Source of the DNA: Patiria pectinifera
Taxonomy: Eukaryota; Echinodermata; Asteroidea; Valvatida; Asterinidae
Assembly: GCA_029964075.1 (NCBI GenBank)
Contig: CM057130.1
Coordinates: forward strand, 3,348,001 to 3,412,000
Reading direction: 5' to 3'
DNA length: 64,000 nucleotides
A program made the translations under genes and the position numbers. The notes under the pieces were generated by a model, which saw only the letters and a list, made by a program, of their open reading frames with translations, was not told where the DNA came from and made no database searches. This document shows, one piece after another, positions 3,465 through 44,300 of the stretch. The stretch's first letter is position 1, and each line of letters opens with the position of its first letter.

Positions 3465-4930
3465 AGGACAGAAACTGACATTAAAAGTCACATATCAAGA
3501 TCCAATGTTAATTAAGGTTAATTGATTACGATAGGCGATTGTACATGATAACATATCCTTGTTCGCATTCCCTGTCCAATTTATGTACATAGGTAGGACT
3601 TTGATCTGAAATGGTATCACTGTACATGTTGGTATTCCAATTTGCATTACTCATCAACTCTTGCTTTAAAAACAAAACCAGGAATGAACGCAATACAAAT
3701 TTGAACGTTTTGCAACTATTTATTCGACTAATACGTCTGACGAGGAAAGAGCAACAAGAACTTGGGATTTACCCAGCTGTATTCGCATCTGGAAAACAAT
3801 CGATGATTACATCCAGCACACATAATATGTAACTGTGCCGTCCGTCCGTTACGGTAAGGTTTTGACAGGTGTGTGTAAAAAGATATTCCAGATAGGCCTA
3901 TTAGTCCAGTCTTTCCCAAACCAATGGCTCATGAGGCGGGCGTTAAGCTTCGGTTCCCATGTAATGAAATGTATTTCCTTCCCAGGCACAAGATGCCAGT
4001 CCACCGCAGGTTAATTCCTGCCTATTAAACTGTATATTACGGAAGTGTATATGACCATCCGCGTTACTGCGTTACTAAGATAACATATCTTGGGTTCCCT
4101 GAAAGGCTATCGTGGAAACGTGGAATACTTTGAAATCCTTTCACAGAAACTTTGAATTTCCTTGATAGGCTATCGTGGAAACGTGGAATACTGTGATAGC
4201 CTATCGCAGCAATGTGGAATTGCGTGATAGGCTATCGTGGAAATGTGGAATACTGTGCTAGCTTATCACGGAAACGTGGAATATCGTTAAAGCCTATCAC
4301 AGCAACATAGAATTCGGTGACAGGCTATCGCGAAAGCATGTAATTCCGTGATGAACTATCGTGGAAACGTGGAATTTTCTGATAGGCTAACGATATTATG
4401 GCATTTCGCTTTGCCACGATCATAACATCACGAAATTTCATGTTGTTGAGATACTCTATCGCGGTATTCCACTTTTCGTGATAGGCTATCACAGTATTCC
4501 GCGTTTCCACGATAGCATATCACGGAATTCCACTTATTCATGATAGCATATCACGGGATGCCACGTTTCCACGATAACCTACCACGGACTTTCCAGTTTC
4601 CATGATAGGCTTTCATGGAATTCAGCATATTCATGATGGGCTATCGCTGCATTCCGAGTTGTAAAGATATTTTATGATGGAACTCTATGGTTCCAAGTTA
4701 TTTTATATCAGTCTCGCAATAACTCCGATGGTCATCTACGCTTCCGTAGTATATGCATGTACTCGGTGGATATGGTCTTGGGGTAAAGCGTCTTTCCCAA
4801 GGCCACAAAATATGGCGGGATTTGAATCCTGACCATCTGTTCACAAGTCACCAACCGTTATCACTTTATTGGTCACTCTCCACAAAAACGTATCTCAATA
4901 CTGGTATGATGGACATTGTGTTAAAGTGAG
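3465..4930. repeat. 5' part of the TRIM segmental duplication, copy 2
   Basis: Counterpart of 1-780, about 3.5 kb downstream in the same orientation. Collinearity is interrupted by an inverted minisatellite at about 4030-4720 that copy 1 lacks. The right part (about 4770-4870) is the same minus-strand SINE remnant seen in copy 1 (GGGTAAAGCGTCTTTCCC, then GGATTTGAATCCTGACC). Confidence 0.6.
4085..4690. repeat. Inverted degenerate minisatellite (foldback array)
   Basis: About 20 degenerate units of roughly 30 bp built on the phrase ATAGGCTATCGTGGAAACG followed by TGGAATNC. Left of about 4395 the units read in this orientation; right of it they read as the reverse complement (ATTCCACNTTTCCACGATAG). 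The whole block can therefore fold on itself. It interrupts the TRIM duplication in copy 2 only. Confidence 0.8.
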
Positions 4931-5101: not shown

Positions 5102-5500
5102 ATGGCAGAGGGAGGGATGTGCAGCTCAGCACTCAAGAAGTTCGGCACGACGATCATCTGCTCTGTTCAATTTGTTACGAAATGTACACAAAGCCCAAGA
5201 CTTTATCGTGTCTGCATAGCTTCTGTGAGAAATGTCTTCTCACTTACACTGAATCAGCCAAGAAAAACGCCAAGTGATGTCCCCTATGCAAACAACTTAC
5301 TCGTATTCCGAGGGGTGGTGTTAAAAACCTGCCGACGGATTTCAAACTGGAAAGCATGGTAGAAACGGTGTTGCAAAAGCAGACGCAGCCAATACCGACA
5401 TGTACCACTCACACTGGCAAAAAGATACGTAGTCTACTGTGCAACCTGCTCGAGCTCATATGTGTGACGTGTCTTACAGAATCCCATAATCGCCATGATC
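5102..5500 (+). pseudogene. Broken TRIM duplicate, truncated at an assembly gap
   Basis: A second copy of the gene at 1434, clearly homologous at DNA level from the ATG (5102) through the RING and into the B-box. Compared with copy 1 it has about 2 extra bases between the ATG and the first RING cysteine, which puts the ATG out of frame with CSICYEMYTKPK. A 3-base insertion at about 5275 creates an in-frame TGA just before the last RING cysteine pair. A +1 indel in the run of A at about 5420 and a compensating -1 at about 5450 scramble the residues between B-box cysteines. The frame resumes at ELICVTCLTESHNRHD and is cut by the N gap at 5501. With a frameshift, a stop and a local double shift it is most likely a pseudogene. 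Sequencing error is a weaker alternative, since several independent errors would be needed. Confidence 0.85.
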
Positions 5501-6000
5501 NNNNNNNNNNNNNNNNNNNNNNNNNNNNNNNNNNNNNNNNNNNNNNNNNNNNNNNNNNNNNNNNNNNNNNNNNNNNNNNNNNNNNNNNNNNNNNNNNNNN
5601 NNNNNNNNNNNNNNNNNNNNNNNNNNNNNNNNNNNNNNNNNNNNNNNNNNNNNNNNNNNNNNNNNNNNNNNNNNNNNNNNNNNNNNNNNNNNNNNNNNNN
5701 NNNNNNNNNNNNNNNNNNNNNNNNNNNNNNNNNNNNNNNNNNNNNNNNNNNNNNNNNNNNNNNNNNNNNNNNNNNNNNNNNNNNNNNNNNNNNNNNNNNN
5801 NNNNNNNNNNNNNNNNNNNNNNNNNNNNNNNNNNNNNNNNNNNNNNNNNNNNNNNNNNNNNNNNNNNNNNNNNNNNNNNNNNNNNNNNNNNNNNNNNNNN
5901 NNNNNNNNNNNNNNNNNNNNNNNNNNNNNNNNNNNNNNNNNNNNNNNNNNNNNNNNNNNNNNNNNNNNNNNNNNNNNNNNNNNNNNNNNNNNNNNNNNNN
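5501..6000. other. Assembly gap of exactly 500 N
   Basis: An unbroken run of exactly 500 N, which suggests a placeholder length rather than a measured size. It separates the TRIM pseudogene from the satellite, so the adjacency of these two is not proven by sequence. Confidence 0.99.
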
Positions 6001-9000
6001 TTCTTTACAAAATCCGGTCTTTTGTATTGTAATTATCAATCGTTGGATTAATTTCATTGGGCTGACTCTGTTTCAATACCGATTTATTCGGGGCGCGAAT
6101 AGAATACACTTTGAGAGTCCCTTAACCCGTGTATGCAATTGGAACGGGACATTTCGGACATTTAGGATGGTACAAAATCATTTCAAAATGGGATATCCGT
6201 ATTTTCGTTGGAAAACGGCTGTTTTGTACGTAAATTATCAATCGTTGGATTAATTTCATTGGGCTGACTCTGTTTCAATACCGATTTATTCGGGGCGCGA
6301 ATAGAATACACTTTGAGAGTCCCTTAACCCGTGTATGCAAGTGGAACGGGACATTTCGGCCATTTAGAATGGTACAAAATCATTTCAAATTGGGATATCC
6401 GTATTTCGTTGGAAACCGGCTGTTTTGTATTGTAATTATCAATCGTTGGATTAAATTCATTGGGCTGACTCTGTTTCAATACCGATTTATTCGGGGCGCG
6501 AATAGAATACACTTTGAGAGTCCCTTAACCCGTGTATGCAATTGGAACGGGACATTTCGGACATGTAGGATGGTACAAAATCATTTCAAAATGGGATATC
6601 CGTATTTTCTTTGCAAAAACCGGTCTTTTGTATTGTAATTATCAATCGTTGGATTAATTTCATTGGGCTGACTCTGTTTCAATACCGATTTATTCGGGGC
6701 GCGAATAGAATACACTTTGGATGTCCCTCAACCCGTGTTTGCAATTGGAACGGGACATTTCGGACATTTAGGATGGTACAAAATCATTTCAAAATGGGAT
6801 ATCCGTATTTTCTTTGCAAAAACCGGTCTTTTGTATTGTAATTATCAATCGTTGGATTAATTTCATTGGGCTGACTCTGTTTCAATACCGATTTATTCGG
6901 GGCGCGAATAGAATACACTTTGAGAGTCCCTTAACCCGTGTATGCAATTGGAACGGGACATTTCGGACATGTAGGATGGTACAAAATCATTTCAAATGGG
7001 ATATCCGTATTTTCTTTGCAAAAACCAGTCTTTTGTATTGTAATTATCAATCGTTGGATTAATTTCATTGGGCTGACTCTGTTTCAATACCGATTTATTC
7101 GGGGCGCGAATAGAATACACTTTGAGAGTCCTTTAACCCGTGTATGCAATTGGAACGGGACATTTCGGACATTTAGGATGGTACAAAATCATTTCAAAAT
7201 GGGATATCCGTATTTTCGTTGGAAAACGGTTGTTTTGTACGTAAATTATCAATCGTTGGATTAATTTAATTGGGCTGACTCTGTTTCAATACCGATTTAT
7301 TCGGGGCGCGAATAGAATACACTTTGAGAGTCCCTTAACCCTTGTATGCAATTGGAACGGGACATTTCGGACATGTAGGATGGTACAAAATCATTTCAAA
7401 ATGGGATATCCGTATTTTCTTTGCAAAAACCGGTCTTTTGTATTGTAATTATCAATCGTTGGATTAATTTCATTGGGCTGACTCTGTTTCAATACCGATT
7501 TATTCGGGGCGCGAATAGAATACACTTTGAGAGTCCCTTAACCCTTGTATGCAATTGGAACGGGACATTTCGGACATGTAGGATGGTACAAAATCATTTC
7601 AAAATGGGATATCCGTATTTTCGTTGGAAAACGGTTGTTTTGTACGTAAATTATCAATCGTTGGATTAATTTAATTGGGCTGACTCTGTTTCAATACCGA
7701 TTTATTCGGGGCGCGAATAGAATACACTTTGAGAGTCCCTTAACCCGTGTATGCAAGTAGAACGGGACATTTCGGACATTTAGAATGGTACAAAATCATT
7801 TCAAATTGGGATATCCGTATTTCGTTGGAAACCGGCTGTTTTGTATTGTAATTATCAATCGTTGGATTAAATTCATTGGGCTTACTCTGTTTCAATACCG
7901 ATTTATTCGGGGCGCGAATAGAATACACTTTGAGAGTCCCTTAACCCGTGTATGCAATTGGAACGGGACATTTCGGACATGTAGGATGGTACAAAATCAT
8001 TTCAAAATGGGATATCCGTATTTTCTTTGGAAAACCGGTCTTTTGTATTGTAATTATCAATCGTTGGATTAATTTCATTGGGCTGACTCTGTTTCAATAC
8101 CGATTTATTCGGGGCGCGAATAGAATACACTTTGGATGTCCCTCAACCCGTGTTTGCAATTGGAACGGGACATTTCGGACATTTAGGATGGTACAAAATC
8201 ATTTCAAAATGGGATATCCGTATTTTCGTTGGAAAACCGGTCTTTTGTATTGTAATTATCAATCGTTGGATTAATTTCATTGGGCTGACTCTGTTTCAAT
8301 ACCGATTTATTCGGGGCGCGAATAGAATACACTTTGGATGTCCCTCAACCCGTGTATGCAATTGGAACGGGACATTTCGGACATGTAGGATGGTACAAAA
8401 TCATTTCAAAATGGGATATCCGTATTTTCTTTGCAAAAACCGGTCTTTTGTATTGTAATTATCAATCGTTGGATTAATTTCATTGGGCTGACTCTGTTTC
8501 AATACCGATTTATTCGGGGCGCGAATAGAATACACTTTGGATGTCCCTCAACCCGTGTATGCAATTGGAACGGGACATTTCGGACATTTAGGATGGTACA
8601 AAATCATTTCAAAATGGGATATCCGTATTTTCGTTGGAAAACGGCTGTTTTGTACGTTAATTATCAATCGTTGGATTAATTTCATTGGGCTGACTCTGTT
8701 TCAATACCGATTTATTCGGGGCGCGAATAGAATACACTTTGGATGTCCCTCAACCCGTGTATGCAATTGGAACGGGACATTTCGGACATTTAGGATGGTA
8801 CAAAATCATTTCAAAATGGGATATCCGTATTTTCGTTGGAAAACCGGTCTTTTGTATTGTAATTATCAATCGTTGGATTAATTTCATTGGGCTGACTCTG
8901 TTTCAATACCGATTTATTCGGGGCGCGAATAGAATACACTTTGGATGTCCCTCAACCCGTGTATGCAATTGGAACGGGACATTTCGGACATTTAGGATGG

Positions 9001-12000
9001 TACAAAATCATTTCAAAATGAGACATCCGTACTTTCTTTGGAAAACGGCTGTTTTGTTCGTTAATTATCAATCGTTGGATTTAAATTAATTGGGCTGACT
9101 CTGTTTCAATACCGATTTATTCGGGGCGCGAATAGAATACACTTTGAGAGTCCCTTAACCCGTGTATGCAATTGGAACGGGACATTTCGGACATTTAGGA
9201 TGGTACAAAATCATTTCAAATGGGATGTCCGTACTTTCTTTGGAAAACGGCTGTTTTGTACGTTAATTATCAATCGTTAGATTAATTTAATTGGGCTGAC
9301 TCTGTTTCAATACCGATTTATTCGGGGCGCGAATAGAATACACTTTAAGAGTCCCTCAACCCGTGTATGCAAGTGGAACGGGACATTTCGGACATGTAGG
9401 ATGGTACAAAATCATTTCAAAATGGTATATCCGTATTTTCTTTGCAAAAACCAGTCTTTTGTATTGTAATTATCAATCGTTGGATTAATTTCATTGGGCT
9501 GACTCTGTTTCAATACCGATTTATCCGGGGCGCGAATAGAATACACTTTGAAAGTCCCTCAACCCGTGTATGCAATTGGAACGGGACATTTCGGACATTT
9601 AGGATGGTACAAAATCATTTCAAATGGGATGTCCGTACTTTCTTTGGAAAACGGCTGTTTTGTACGTTAATTATCAATCGTTGGATTAATTTAATTGGGC
9701 TGACTCTGTTTCAATACCGATTTATTCGGGGCGCGAATAGAATACACTTTGAGAGTCCCTTAACCCTTGTATGCAATTGGAACGGGACATTTCGGACATG
9801 TAGGATGGTACAAAATCATTTCAAAATGGGATATCCGTATTTTCTTTGCAAAAACCGGTCTTTTGTATTGTAATTATCAATCGTTGGATTAATTTCATTG
9901 GGCTGACTCTGTTTCAATACCGATTTATTCGGGGCGCGAATAGAATACACTTTGAGAGTCCCTTAACCCTTGTATGCAATTGGAACGGGACATTTCGGAC
10001 ATGTAGGATGGTACAAAATCATTTCAAAATGGGATATCCGTATTTTCGTTGGAAAACGGTTGTTTTGTACGTAAATTATCAATCGTTGGATTAATTTAAT
10101 TGGGCTGACTCTGTTTCAATACCGATTTATTCGGGGCGCGAATAGAATACACTTTGAGAGTCCCTTAACCCGTGTATGCAAGTAGAACGGGACATTTCGG
10201 ACATTTAGAATGGTACAAAATCATTTCAAATTGGGATATCCGTATTTCGTTGGAAACCGGCTGTTTTGTATTGTAATTATCAATCGTTGGATTAAATTCA
10301 TTGGGCTTACTCTGTTTCAATACCGATTTATTCGGGGCGCGAATAGAATACACTTTGAGAGTCCCTTAACCCGTGTATGCAATTGGAACGGGACATTTCG
10401 GACATGTAGGATGGTACAAAATCATTTCAAAATGGGATATCCGTATTTTCTTTGCAAAAACCGGTCTTTTGTATTGTAATTATCAATCGTTGGATTAATT
10501 TCATTGGGCTGACTCTGTTTCAATACCGATTTATTCGGGGCGCGAATAGAATACACTTTGGATGTCCCTCAACCCGTGTATGCAATTGGAACGGGACATT
10601 TCGGACATGTAGGATGGTACAAAATCATTTCAAAATGGGATATCCGTATTTTCTTTGCAAAAACCGGTCTTTTGTATTGTAATTATCAATCGTTGGATTA
10701 ATTTCATTGGGCTGACTCTGTTTCAATACCGATTTATTCGGGGCGCGAATAGAATACACTTTGGATGTCCCTCAACCCGTGTATGCAATTGGAACGGGAC
10801 ATTTCGGACATTTAGGATGGTACAAAATCATTTCAAAATGGGATATCCGTATTTTCGTTGGAAAACGGCTGTTTTGTACGTTAATTATCAATCGTTGGAT
10901 TAATTTCATTGGGCTGACTCTGTTTCAATACCGATTTATTCGGGGCGCGAATAGAATACACTTTGGATGTCCCTCAACCCGTGTATGCAATTGGAACGGG
11001 ACATTTCGGACATTTAGGATGGTACAAAATCATTTCAAAATGGGATATCCGTATTTTCGTTGGAAAACCGGTCTTTTGTATTGTAATTATCAATCGTTGG
11101 ATTAATTTCATTGGGCTGACTCTGTTTCAATACCGATTTATTCGGGGCGCGAATAGAATACACTTTGGATGTCCCTCAACCCGTGTATGCAATTGGAACG
11201 GGACATTTCGGACATTTAGGATGGTACAAAATCATTTCAAAATGAGACATCCGTACTTTCTTTGGAAAACGGCTGTTTTGTTCGTTAATTATCAATCGTT
11301 GGATTTAAATTAATTGGGCTGACTCTGTTTCAATACCGATTTATTCGGGGCGCGAATAGAATACACTTTGAGAGTCCCTTAACCCGTGTATGCAATTGGA
11401 ACGGGACATTTCGGACATTTAGGATGGTACAAAATCATTTCAAATGGGATGTCCGTACTTTCTTTGGAAAACGGCTGTTTTGTACGTTAATTATCAATCG
11501 TTAGATTAATTTAATTGGGCTGACTCTGTTTCAATACCGATTTATTCGGGGCGCGAATAGAATACACTTTAAGAGTCCCTCAACCCGTGTATGCAAGTGG
11601 AACGGGACATTTCGGACATGTAGGATGGTACAAAATCATTTCAAAATGGTATATCCGTATTTTCTTTGCAAAAACCAGTCTTTTGTATTGTAATTATCAA
11701 TCGTTGGATTAATTTCATTGGGCTGACTCTTTTTCAATACCGATTTATCCGGGGCGCGAATAGAATACACTTTGAAAGTCCCTCAACCCGTGTATGCAAT
11801 TGGAACGGGACATTTCGGACATTTAGGATGGTACAAAATCATTTCAAATGGGATGTCCGTACTTTCTTTGGAAAACGGCTGTTTTGTACGTTAATTATCA
11901 ATCGTTAGATTAATTTAATTGGGCTGACTCTGTTTCAATACCGATTTATTCGGGGCGCGAATAGAATACACTTTGAGAGTCCCTTAACACTTGTATGCAA

Positions 12001-14701
12001 TTGGAACGGGACATTTCGGACATGTAGGATGGTACAAAATCATTTCAAAATGGGATATCCGTATTTTCTTTGCAAAAACCGGTCTTTTGTATTGTAATTA
12101 TCAATCGTTGGATTAATTTCATTGGGCTGACTCTGTTTCAATACCGATTTATTCGGGGCGCGAATAGAATACACTTTGAGAGTCCCTTAACCCTTGTATG
12201 CAATTGGAACGGGACATTTCGGACATGTAGGATGGTACAAAATCATTTCAAAATGGGATATCCGTATTTTCGTTGGAAAACGGTTGTTTTGTACGTAAAT
12301 TATCAATCGTTGGATTAATTTAATTGGGCTGACTCTGTTTCAATACCGATTTATTCGGGGCGCGAATAGAATACACTTTGAGAGTCCCTTAACCCGTGTA
12401 TGCAAGTAGAACGGGACATTTCGGACATTTAGAATGGTACAAAATCATTTCAAATTGGGATATCCGTATTTCGTTGGAAACCGGCTGTTTTGTATTGTAA
12501 TTATCAATCGTTGGATTAAATTCATTGGGCTTACTCTGTTTCAATACCGATTTATTCGGGGCGCGAATAGAATACACTTTGAGAGTCCCTTAACCCGTGT
12601 ATGCAATTGGAACGGGACATTTCGGACATGTAGGATGGTACAAAATCATTTCAAAATGGGATATCCGTATTTTCTTTGCAAAAACCGGTCTTTTGTATTG
12701 TAATTATCAATCGTTGGATTAATTTCATTGGGCTGACTCTGTTTCAATACCGATTTATTCGGGGCGCGAATAGAATACACTTTGGATGTCCCTCAACCCG
12801 TGTTTGCAATTGGAACGGGACATTTCGGACATTTAGGATGGTACAAAATCATTTCAAAGTGGGATATCCGTATTTTCTTTGCAAAAACCGGTCTTTTGTA
12901 TTGTAATTATCAATCGTTGGATTAATTTCATTGGGCTGACTCTGTTTCAATACCGATTTATTCGGGGCGCGAATAGAATACACTTTGGATGTCCCTCAAC
13001 CCGTGTATGCAATTGGAACGGGACATTTCGGACATGTAGGATGGTACAAAATCATTTCAAAATGGGATATCCGTATTTTCTTTGCAAAAACCGGTCTTTT
13101 GTATTGTAATTATCAATCGTTGGATTAATTTCATTGGGCTGACTCTGTTTCAATACCGATTTATTCGGGGCGCGAATAGAATACACTTTGGATGTCCCTC
13201 AACCCGTGTATGCAATTGGAACGGGACATTTCGGACATTTAGGATAGTACAAAATCATTTCAAAATGGGATATCCGTATTTTCGTTGGAAAACGGCTGTT
13301 TTGTACGTTAATTATCAATCGTTGGATTAATTTCATTGGGCTGACTCTGTTTCAATACCGATTTATTCGGGGCGCGAATAGAATACACTTTGGATGTCCC
13401 TCAACCCGTGTATGCAATTGGAACGGGACATTTCGGACATTTAGGATGGTACAAAATCATTTCAAAATGGGATATCCGTATTTTCGTTGGAAAACCGGTC
13501 TTTTGTATTGTAATTATCAATCGTTGGATTAATTTCATTGGGCTGACTCTGTTTCAATACCGATTTATTCGGGGCGCGAATAGAATACACTTTGGATGTC
13601 CCTCAACCCGTGTATGCAATTGGAACGGGACATTTCGGACATTTAGGATGGTACAAAATCATTTCAAATGGGACATCCGTACTTTCTTTGGAAAACGGCT
13701 GTTTTGTTCGTTAATTATCAATCGTTGGATTTAAATTAATTGGGCTGACTCTGTTTCAATACCGATTTATTCGGGGCGCGAATAGAATACACTTTGAGAG
13801 TCCCTTAACCCGTGTATGCAATTGGAACGGGACATTTCGGACATTTAGGATGGTACAAAATCATTTCAAATGGGATGTCCGTACTTTCTTTGGAAAACGG
13901 CTGTTTTGTACGTTAATTATCAATCGTTAGATTAATTTAATTGGGCTGACTCTGTTTCAATACCGATTTATTCGGGGCGCGAATAGAATACACTTTAAGA
14001 GTCCCTCAACCCGTGTATGCAAGTGGAACGGGACATTTCGGACATGTAGGATGGTACAAAATCATTTCAAAATGGTATATCCGTATTTTCTTTGCAAAAA
14101 CCAGTCTTTTGTATTGTAATTATCAATCGTTGGATTAATTTCATTGGGCTGACTCTTTTTCAATACCGATTTATCCGGGGCGCGAATAGAATACACTTTG
14201 AGAGTCCCTTAACCCGTGTATGCAATTGGAACGGGACATTTCGGACATTTAGGATGGTACAAAATCATTTCAAATGGGATGTCCGTACTTTCTTTGGAAA
14301 ACGGCTGTTTTGTACGTTAATTATCAATCGTTAGATTAATTTAATTGGGCTGACTCTGTTTCAATACCGATTTATTCGGGGCGCGAATAGAATACACTTT
14401 AAGAGTCCCTCAACCCGTGTATGCAATTGGAACGGGACATTTCGGACATTTAGGATGGTACAAAATCATTTCAAAATGGGATATCCGTATTTTCTTTGCA
14501 AAAACCTGTCTTTTGTATTGTAATTATCAATCGTTGGATTAATTTCATTGGGCTGACTCTGTCTCAATACCGATTTATTCGGGGCGCGAATAGAATACAC
14601 TTTGGATGTCCCTCAACCCGTGTTTGCAATTGGAACGGGACATTTCGGACATTTAGGATGGTACAAAATCATTTCAAAATGGGATATCCGTATTTTCTTT
14701 A
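6001..14701 (+). repeat. 202-203 bp satellite array with higher-order repeats
   Basis: About 43 head-to-tail monomers. Each carries TTCAATACCGATTTATTCGG, GGGCGCGAATAGAATACAC, AACGGGACATTTCGGACAT, TGGTACAAAATCATTTCAAA and TATCAATCGTTGGATT. Monomer length alternates between 202 and 203, depending on GGAAAACC versus GCAAAAACC. Variants (GAGAGTCCCTTAACCC versus GGATGTCCCTCAACCC; TTTAGG versus TGTAGG; a lost A in CAAATGGGATGTCC) recur in the same order at 7421-9845, 9846-12069 and 12070-14495. This defines a higher-order repeat of 12, 11 and 12 monomers. The array begins inside the N gap and ends abruptly at about 14701. Every monomer happens to leave one frame open; this is not evidence of coding. 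Confidence 0.97.
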
Positions 14702-41327: not shown

Positions 41328-44300
41328 GAGCACAAGTGACGCTGTCTTGCCCGAAACGGACGGAAAAACAAATGAAAACACCGTGAAGATTATCTGTCTC
41401 GGGGATTCAGCTGTCGGGAAATCAAAGTAAGTGCATTTTGAATGATTTGGCATATGTCGATTTCAAATAAATCTGTGTTAAAGAGGACAAACCATTATTC
41501 TGCGGCAGTTTTATACGCGACCGTCAAGCATGTCAAGTGAAGTGTCATTTGAAATGCACACTGTCTGTGACCAGGTCCAGGTGACTCTCTGTCGATGTTG
41601 TGTGCTTGCAATTTGCGCTATCTTAAGAATGAGCGCGCATTCTTAAGAATGAGCACGCAATCTGTAAGATAAGCACTCATTCTTAAGAATAAGATTGCGT
41701 GGGAATATTGCTTGCGCAATTTATGAATTTTGCGCAAACTTAGCAAACACTGCATGGCATAATTATGTTAAATCAGGTAAACGTATTAGAGGTTAAAGGG
41801 GAAATAATCATATGTCACGAGAAAAGAAAATGATTCTATGCTTCTGTCATGTCTGTAGGCCTACCCATTGAAATACGATAATTTGAATTCAATTAAACCA
41901 TTAAACTAGCTGGGCAATTCCACACCAAAGTGGACATGACACCAAAAAATTCAAATACATGTGATTTAAACAAATTTGGCATCAAATGAAAGCTAAAAGC
42001 CTATGTTTTCAAGATTTGAAGTCGGAATTTAATTTTTTATACATTTCGGTACCAAAAACTAGGATTATGTAACAATCCTGTTTTAATCCTAAAAATGTGA
42101 TTAATAGTGATATGAAAGTATTCTACCAATAGACACACAAAAATATGTACTAATGCCATCAGTTTCTGTCATGAGAAAGTATTGGTCTTGAAAAACCGAC
42201 TAAAACTTGTTTTGAACATTTTGCTTAATTTGTTTCGCTTCAGTGACTTCTAATATTTCAGCCTTCAAAAATGTCCTTCCGTTACCGAAAAAAATACATA
42301 TTTTTAATTTAATTTTTAAAACTTGCAGTATGAATGCATTGAAAGTTATTGTGCAAAGCAAGTTTAGGTAGGCCTTCAATATGACATTATAACTGACACT
42401 GCTGTACTTCTCGTTTTTTAATTACAATTAATTAAATCACGTCCTTCCGTTACCAAATTGGTAACGGAAGGACGGTAACGGAAGGACAAATCGTATTTTT
42501 ATCAAATGTTACGACATTTGCGCTCATGTTTGAAAAATGAAAATCACTGCAAATACATGCATGTATAATGAGCATTGAAAGGACATTCATGTGACCCACC
42601 TTCACAAAAGCGGGATAAGCAGGGCAAGGTGTTTATTACAATTTGAAGGCACAGGCATGTACAACATGTACAATGTACATGTACATATATGCCGATGTAC
42701 CAGTACTTGTACATGTATGGAGTTGTTGCAGAAAATCAAATCATAAAGTTGCTGCCATCAGCATTCATGGACAATAGAGAAAGATATGAATTCTGTGAAG
42801 CCATTTCAGAAGCAAATTAAGTCAAAAATGAGATGGCAGAAAGTACCGGTACTTTGAGGCACTTTCATTCAATTTACATGTGCAAGACATGTGAGGTGCA
42901 GTCTTTGACAAATTATGCCCAACTTAACAACTTCAGTTTGGATGTTTATAAATTAATTGTTACTACTCTAAATCATTGTAATTTGATTTCAAACATTGAT
43001 TTTAGAGTTCAATTAAAAGCAACACCTAACTGAAGCCATCAGTTCTACCGGTAGATGTTTTGACCTTAAATGTACACGTACATGTAGGCTGGTTGCCCCA
43101 ACCCTTTAGGTAAACCTTTGAACCTACCGGTATTATTATTAAAAGTTGTTGGTGAACATGTAACCAATATACTCAAGAGTTCAAATACTGTGTATTTAAA
43201 CTTTTAAGGATTGAGGTGATGGGTTTGAAGTCTATTTCTGTAGTAGTCTTGTGTTCGTGAATTATGTGTTTTGGGTTGTTTTCGTTTTTCTTTTGTTATC
43301 ATTAATTACTAGGCTTCTATCTTTATCTCAATAGTTTCTTGGGTATAATTATTTATGCCAGGTCTGCATATTGTTGATTTCACATTCAGTTACACATTTA
43401 AGCAATTTGTTGCACTTGTATAATTAGTATAAATTCACATTTTGTTCATGCTATAATTGAGTAAACCTTTTGTCCTTCCGTTACCGTCCTTCCGTTACCA
43501 AATTATAATCTGCTTAAAACGTTGTAATTATATAACCGAAACACTTAAAGTCAAATGAAAGGCGGTATAGTATAGATAAAGCTTCAGGGATTCCATTTCC
43601 TACCTTTAAAATATAATTGCCCCATAAAATTCACAGAGTTTTTGCAAAACGCGAGTAAGTTGGAAAACCCTTGTCCGTTTTACCGTCCTTCCGTTACCGA
43701 CCTCATTAATATTCATAATTCATAAACGGGAGGCATTCATGCCCCCCAAAAGTGTGGAAAATGAAAGAAGCATTATAGCAATACAATTGTGACATTTGTT
43801 TGCTGTAACTTTGAACAGTGTCTGTGATACACACATTTGAAATTTTGTTTAATGAGTGAAAACGTCCTTCCGTTACCGTGGAATTGCCCAGCTGTTATTA
43901 TTGCTTATTTCTGTCTAGCCCCATAAATGTGGCCAATTTACTGGACTACCTCCGTAAATAAAGGCCACACTTCCACCATGTACAAAAACATGTCAAACTT
44001 TGTCAAATTTTGATTTTCACATTTAGGCTTAGTTTGTAATTTATTTTGGCAGTAGCTGGAGTTACCCAGCCCTGAGTTTTATCATTGGGTTGTCATCTAG
44101 GGCTGGAGCTCATTTTTCTCGAAAACGATAGTATAGGCAAAAAAAATTTGGAAAATGTTGAATTTTGTCCCCGTTACACACTAATTGCAACTGCAACTCA
44201 CCCCAAACTTGCCTGGAATAACCATTACACAGGTCCTTGAAGTAAAAAACGATCCACGATGAAGATTCAGCCTACAATTGCAGTGAAAACAGGAGGAATA

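Follow-up and report, generated by a model that had tools for sequence, protein, structure and literature searches.

A non-autonomous DNA transposon family in Patiria pectinifera with an exactly kept subterminal 14-mer, a putative transposase-binding repeat

A full-length, non-coding copy of a DNA transposon, 1978 bp long, was found at positions 41912-43889 of the window, i.e., the whole 64,000-nucleotide stretch of Patiria pectinifera DNA that was analyzed (assembly GCA_029964075.1, contig CM057130.1, positions 3,348,001 to 3,412,000, forward strand). Eight exact copies of the 14-mer GTCCTTCCGTTACC lie within it. With terminal inverted repeats (TIRs) and a target-site duplication of fixed length, the element is a non-autonomous cut-and-paste DNA transposon. 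It is probably mobilized in trans, with its family-specific subterminal 14-mers as putative transposase-binding repeats; we infer both the binding step and the transposase of this family. The features of the copy are as follows.

41908-41911, no strand: left target-site duplication AGCT (exact 4-bp duplication in 24/30 copies)
41912-43889, plus strand: non-autonomous DNA transposon copy (matches of 96-100% identity; longest frame 73 codons)
41912-41923, plus strand: left TIR GGGCAATTCCAC, 12 bp (ends aligned across copies)
41912-41945, plus strand: P-end, the TIR plus the CAAAGTGGACATGAC block, common with sister families and with no motif at the TIR (30-copy alignment, comparison of ends)
42273-42286, plus strand: motif copy 1, GTCCTTCCGTTACC (exact match; 361 bp from the left end)
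42441-42454, plus strand: motif copy 2, hairpin arm (exact match; predicted fold)
42460-42473, minus strand: motif copy 3, hairpin arm, abutting copy 4 and gapped in the alignments of the relatives L039-L041 (exact match)
42474-42487, minus strand: motif copy 4 (exact match)
43472-43485, plus strand: motif copy 5, abutting copy 6 (exact match)
43486-43499, plus strand: motif copy 6 (exact match)
43685-43698, plus strand: motif copy 7 (exact match)
43864-43877, plus strand: motif copy 8, abutting the right TIR, the "M-end" (exact match; another 14-mer here in sister families)
43878-43889, minus strand: right TIR GGGCAATTCCAC, 12 bp (ends aligned across copies)
43890-43893, no strand: right target-site duplication AGCT (same 30-copy comparison as for the left AGCT)

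A DNA search, in which the best 40 of 345 candidates were scored, gave 40 full-length matches of 96-100% identity, the window copy among them, spread over 19 contigs. The 30 full copies most similar to the window copy, taken without random sampling, were aligned. All 30 are bordered on both sides by GGGCAATTCCAC with at most 2 mismatches, and the family termini read GGGCAATTCC. The 4-bp target-site duplication is exact in 24 of these copies and has at most one mismatch in 27, and an exact duplication of 5, 6, 7, 8 or 9 bp was found in 0/30. Most other family copies are flanked by tetramers other than AGCT. These borders confirm the mobile TIR element proposed in an earlier sequence-only reading of this DNA. 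Its non-coding nature was also correctly read, as no stop-to-stop frame within the element exceeds 73 codons. The inverted ends described there as 16 bp and exact do exist, but each consists of the 12-bp TIR plus the 4-bp AGCT duplication. AGCT is its own reverse complement, so a direct repeat was mistaken for part of the inverted repeat. The supposed 16-bp TIR, AGCTGGGCAATTCCAC, has only 20 matches in the genome. An Rfam search of 41800-44000 revealed no family at the gathering threshold.

Several other repeats and frames were observed in the window. Repeats with the clustered word ATTCTTAAGAAT lie directly left of the element at 41620-41700, as seen by eye. A 416-aa open frame at 1317-2567 contains RING and B-box zinc fingers of the TRIM type (Pfam), and a second, partial and diverged copy of this frame was seen by eye at 5278-5500, where it is cut by an N run (about 5500-6000). 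Beside this run starts a satellite array at 6001-14700, in which a 202-bp unit is repeated 43 times with 93% matches and with GC and AT skew. Tandem repeats of 62 bp occupy 4095-4608, a region with the recurring word CGTTTCCACGATAG.

Exact matching recovered all eight 14-mers, six forward and two reverse, where the sequence-only reading had placed them, together with the two directly abutting pairs (42460/42474 and 43472/43486) and the copy touching the right TIR (43864-43877). That reading had further proposed a hairpin with a 5-nt loop. The pair at 42441/42460 is indeed separated by 5 nt (AAATT), but the DNA fold predicted there is an extended stem with a 3-nt loop (-19.6 kcal/mol, z -7.5). 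The window contains 10 matches to the motif when 2 mismatches are allowed, compared with a mean of 0.19 and a maximum of 2 in 100 dinucleotide shuffles, none of which reached 10. Copies 1-4 lie 361-576 bp inward of the left end, and copies 5-8 lie about 420 bp or less from the right end. The left end has no motif at its TIR, the nearest being 361 bp inside, which counts against the transposase-binding reading. At all eight sites the preceding base is a pyrimidine and the following base a purine.

In the 613.5-Mb genome the exact motif occurs 1765 times, compared with 2 occurrences of the reversed word and 1.9 expected from the base composition of the window. At up to one mismatch there are 1999 matches and 152 for the control; subtracting the 1765 exact copies and a control of 150 leaves about 84 one-mismatch copies beyond chance. 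With one mismatch allowed, a 14-mer from the middle of the element has 265 matches and the reversed word, as control, has 58, which gives about 207 family copies. The motif search, the full-length matches and the border comparison agree on a genome-wide family with common ends and motif clusters. The search proposed in the sequence-only reading thus returned many copies with these ends, and the motif is not a common genome-wide word unconnected with the TIRs.

Only 14 of the 1765 exact copies are followed by a pyrimidine and only 7 preceded by a purine, none of these 7 being clustered, so that 21 copies have a neighboring base foreign to the family of the window element. The motif is nearly confined to the contexts of this family. 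Because the neighboring bases are nearly constant genome-wide, the recognition site may extend to 16 bp, YGTCCTTCCGTTACCR; abutting copies, however, do not count independently here.

The 30 aligned copies show a mean divergence of 1.0% from their consensus, suggesting a recent burst. The copies might accordingly be merely young and alike throughout, with no selection on the motif, but we give this explanation hardly any credence. At equal age, the motif cells carry 7 substitutions in 3360 (0.21%), compared with 583 (1.06%) in the background and with 53.7 motif substitutions expected from trinucleotide context. The corresponding Poisson P of about 1e-15 is too small because aligned cells share ancestry, but the direction is clear. 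Moreover, 232 of 240 motifs are intact in the 30 copies, where eight random 14-mers give a mean of 207 (P 0.0009), and within one element all eight sites agree exactly in unrelated surroundings. The TIR columns are as quiet as the motif, with 1 substitution in 24 columns. Alignment of full copies, a check suggested in the sequence-only reading, therefore supports its view that the motif is kept beyond expectation, as for a binding site.

Without any binding function, the motifs could also be identical through homogenization, be it by gene conversion, by template switching or by duplication of units between abutting copies. The two tandem pairs are compatible with such a process, and motif copy 3 is missing in three older relatives, L039, L040 and L041, which suggests gain or loss of entire 14-bp units. 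However, the isolated motifs at 42273, 43685 and 43864 are kept in 30, 29 and 28 of the 30 copies, respectively, and scattered conversion tracts, each of exactly 14 bp, are hard to explain. We consider homogenization quite improbable.

The older relatives were found at three examined places among the 14 where the motif is followed by a pyrimidine. These places are duplicates of one genomic region, which contains a left-truncated relative with 7.8-9.8% substitutions. Intact motifs number 6/8 in L039, 5/8 in L040 and 3/8 in L041, and background 14-mers are intact there at 0.33, 0.31 and 0.24. Motif retention is weakly above background (P = 0.019, 0.068 and 0.31, respectively), with L039 alone above expectation. 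The repeat GGCCACACTTCCACCATGTACAAAAACATG was seen by eye in the right flank of the window element (43915-44000) and also in the left flank of L039-L041.

The motif is also poor in private substitutions, those present in a single copy: there are 5 in 112 motif columns, compared with 0.121 per column in the background. This depletion is not predicted by selection on source copies alone unless most changes pre-date insertion, and it counts against the transposase-binding reading. It leaves room for homogenization, or for retention of the site after insertion through a host protein. In the latter case the motif would be the site of a host DNA-binding protein such as a zinc-finger repressor or a transcription factor, either with regulatory copies or with the protein being exploited by the element. 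The motif is long and GC-richer than the surrounding sequence, like a multi-finger site, which would suit such a protein. However, it is nearly absent outside the contexts of the family, and a site for a host repressor would be expected to be lost rather than kept. Furthermore, one motif touches the TIR, and sister families have a different 14-mer at this same place, which ties the site to the mobilization machinery. We regard the host-protein explanation as unlikely and favor a transposase as the binder of the putative site.

The sister families were found through the TIR followed by a base foreign to the family of the window element, GGGCAATTCCACY, which has 142 genome matches against 6 for the control. 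In 30 such loci cut out of the genome, further copies of the 14-mer behind the TIR, with 2 mismatches allowed, lie on the element side of 19 loci (63 in total) and on the outer side of 2 loci (2 in total). Two of the 19, L052 and L073 with one copy each, are probably not sister elements; some of the 30 loci, L056, L059, L060, L073 and L074 among them, gave no sign of related elements. The 27-base pattern of TIR plus 14-mer occurs at 51 genome places, compared with 0 for the control. The families differ in their 14-mer: GTGACTGACATTAC in F2, GTTACTCACGTTAC in F3 (elements of 235-424 bp, in some of which one pair forms a hairpin), GTCACTCACGTTAC in F3b (746-905 bp) and GTTACSGACGTTAC in F5 (an element of about 4.7 kb from contig C1018). 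Nine sister elements have both ends. The 4-bp duplication is exact in four of them (L048, L051, L055 and L067), has one mismatch in L049 and L058, and does not match in L054, L062 and L065.

The parallel with the window element has limits. The F5 repeats are inexact, with up to 2 mismatches among copies, and the F5 word GTTACNGACGTTAC has 66 genome matches against 46 for the control and clusters at few places. Exact keeping of a 14-mer on a large scale was shown for the family of the window element only. By eye, the window motif read inward from the TIR, GGTAACGGAAGGAC, has GT-ACGGA-G in common with the F5 word GTTACGGACGTTAC. F2 (L045, L053, L057, L063, L070, L071 and L072) is atypical: its repeat unit extends about 590 bp beyond GGGCAATTCCAC on the outer side, which places the TIR inside a larger repeat, perhaps a composite. 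In the F2 locus L045, coding-like sequence at 912-1540, left of the internal TIR, was seen by eye to enter this TIR and to stop in the motif, FWERIFNRRRDYLHKLQDLMSSLSGQFHRD; from its sequence, this is perhaps a captured exon. A minisatellite with CAACTCGGACCC adjoins or is near GGGCAATTCCAC in L052 and, upstream, in L045.

The left end of the window element has an asymmetric structure of its own. Its block reads GGGCAATTCCAC-ACCAAAGTGGACATGAC, with the P-end form GGGCAATTCCACRCMAAAGTGGACA, and element positions 1-34 are without substitution in the 30 copies. The same block, slightly changed, closes the other end of several elements, namely L049, L051, L062 and L065 of F3b, L058, L078 and the F5 element L076. 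An asymmetric end of about 30 bp is thereby common to 8 sequences of three families. A search with the sister form of the block gave 17 genome places, compared with 0 for the control. Judged by sequence comparison, the ends and the left-right organization are common to the family of the window element, F3b and F5, and the repeated 14-mer differs. The asymmetry is not universal, as F3 elements (L048, L054, L055 and L067) carry the motif at the right end too. The first 130 bp of L058 resemble the F5-type L069 (72%) and its other half resembles the F3b element L065 (74%); L058 thus looks mixed, as would be compatible with motif ends having been exchanged by different families. By eye, L076 (C1018:17400-22300), an F5 element without a long frame, apparently carries a nested insert, and directly outside its right end is a tandem repeat (roughly 100 bp).

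The sequence-only reading had suggested looking for longer relatives that encode a transposase. None was found among the elements examined, which comprised motif places with foreign flanks, L077, elements with sister ends, and L068; the foreign-flank search misses any element in which several hundred bases of both ends are like the family of the window element. L077 has the right end with a different interior. This interior had no other match among the best 40 of 2126 candidates, except for an unrelated short repeat at query 735-1053, and L077 is either a truncated copy or a single-copy element. The longest stop-to-stop frames are 83 aa in L075, 122 aa in L076 (inside the element) and 119 aa in L078; neither these nor a 90-aa frame of L077 had a Pfam match at E 0.001. 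A 487-aa frame in L068 (2-1462) was rejected as the partner, having no Pfam match and lying outside the element beside a sister-type TIR.

The sequence-only reading knew of no described family with this layout. However, CACTA and hAT elements likewise combine conserved TIRs with repeated subterminal binding motifs. In CACTA elements, TNPA-type proteins bind subterminal repeats, which differ between families as the TIRs stay conserved; the soybean Tgmt* and Tgm1, two subfamilies of one species, have conserved TIRs and differing motifs (PMC2613891). The likeness of CACTA/En-Spm to the window element lies in a short conserved TIR, a reiterated motif of 12-20 bp near both ends that is partly palindromic, and non-autonomous copies moved in trans; a reiterated subterminal motif towards both ends is present in the window element. 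However, CACTA/En-Spm elements end in CACTA or CA..TG and make a 3-bp duplication (3 bp in Tgmt*), whereas the window element has GGGC..GCCC ends and a 4-bp duplication. The Tgmt* motif partly varies within the element, but that of the window element is kept exactly, and no CACTA transposase was found with its family. The window element thus does not fit CACTA/En-Spm in its ends and duplication. The CMC group, of which Chapaev is a member, has duplications of 2-4 bp (PMC4482050), given elsewhere as 2-5 bp, and mostly CA..TG ends (PMC12730594), unlike the ends of the window element.

The hAT elements Tgf2 and Ac resemble the window element in having a TIR and scattered subterminal repeats, which are bound by an N-terminal zinc-finger domain (PMC4890040), but hAT duplications are 8 bp, or 5-7 bp in some lineages (PMC12730594), compared with 4 bp here. 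The family does not fit hAT in this respect, as 0/30 copies have an exact 5-8 bp duplication. The subterminal repeats of hAT elements are shorter than the 14-bp motif.

Among other groups, duplications are 3 or 4 bp for AcademX, 4 bp for Ginger1, 4 or 5 bp for Ginger2, and 4 to 10 bp for MuDR with the prokaryotic IS256 (PMC10045372). The 4-bp duplication of the window element falls in the AcademX range. For PHIS (Harbinger, ISL2EU, Spy, Pangu and Nuwa), duplications such as ANT, CWG or TNA, or none, are described (PMC4482050), and PHIS with its prokaryotic relatives spans 0-4 bp, so length alone is indecisive (PMC10045372). The named PHIS groups do not fit by their targets, since the family of the window element has 4-bp duplications of mixed sequence. 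The Sola duplication is 4 bp, and Ginger ends are TG..CA, unlike those of the window element. piggyBac and Kolobok target TTAA; they do not fit either, TTAA being found in only 3 of the 24 exact duplications. AcademX, MuDR/IS256 and Sola are compatible with the 4-bp duplication and are possible superfamilies of the element. In the best reading, the window element resembles CACTA/En-Spm and hAT in function, by analogy, and fits neither superfamily. In the literature collection searched for the motif and the TIR, no paper was found to print either string in a transposon context, the matches being apparently on unrelated subjects.

In the transposase-binding reading, the element would be moved in trans by a transposase from another source. 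The 14-mer, perhaps extended to 16 bp, would be bound with high affinity by a DNA-binding domain, either that of the transposase or that of a partner protein encoded by the same element. The protein would load onto the several motif copies towards both ends, and the ends would pair. The TIR would be the cleavage site, with the catalytic protein acting at the common tip, and the common TIR and P-end together with the private repeated word would make up a bipartite end. If only copies with intact motifs are mobilized well, source copies would keep all eight identical. The different 14-mers of the sister families would reflect binding-domain changes in related transposases.

A further, more speculative possibility, which we put forward tentatively as less likely than the reading above, is a transposon group within one eukaryotic genome in which every family adds its own exchangeable 14-bp address, repeated inside the element and at the TIR of one or both ends, to a common end-cutting signal (the TIR plus the asymmetric 30-bp end). 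A change or exchange of the DNA-binding part of the transposase might make source elements switch all copies of this address together. If this is true, the ends would stay common and mobilization would become private to each family. 

One genome with families of the same TIR, partly proven 4-bp duplications and different 14-mers at the homologous place offers a natural series for studying how transposase and site change together. Once found, the transposases would reveal whether a varying binding domain goes with a constant catalytic part. The motif, exact across 1765 copies, is a clean probe for its putative binding protein. The group may add ends and an architecture to a known superfamily, such as Academ or Sola, or it may fall outside the named ones.
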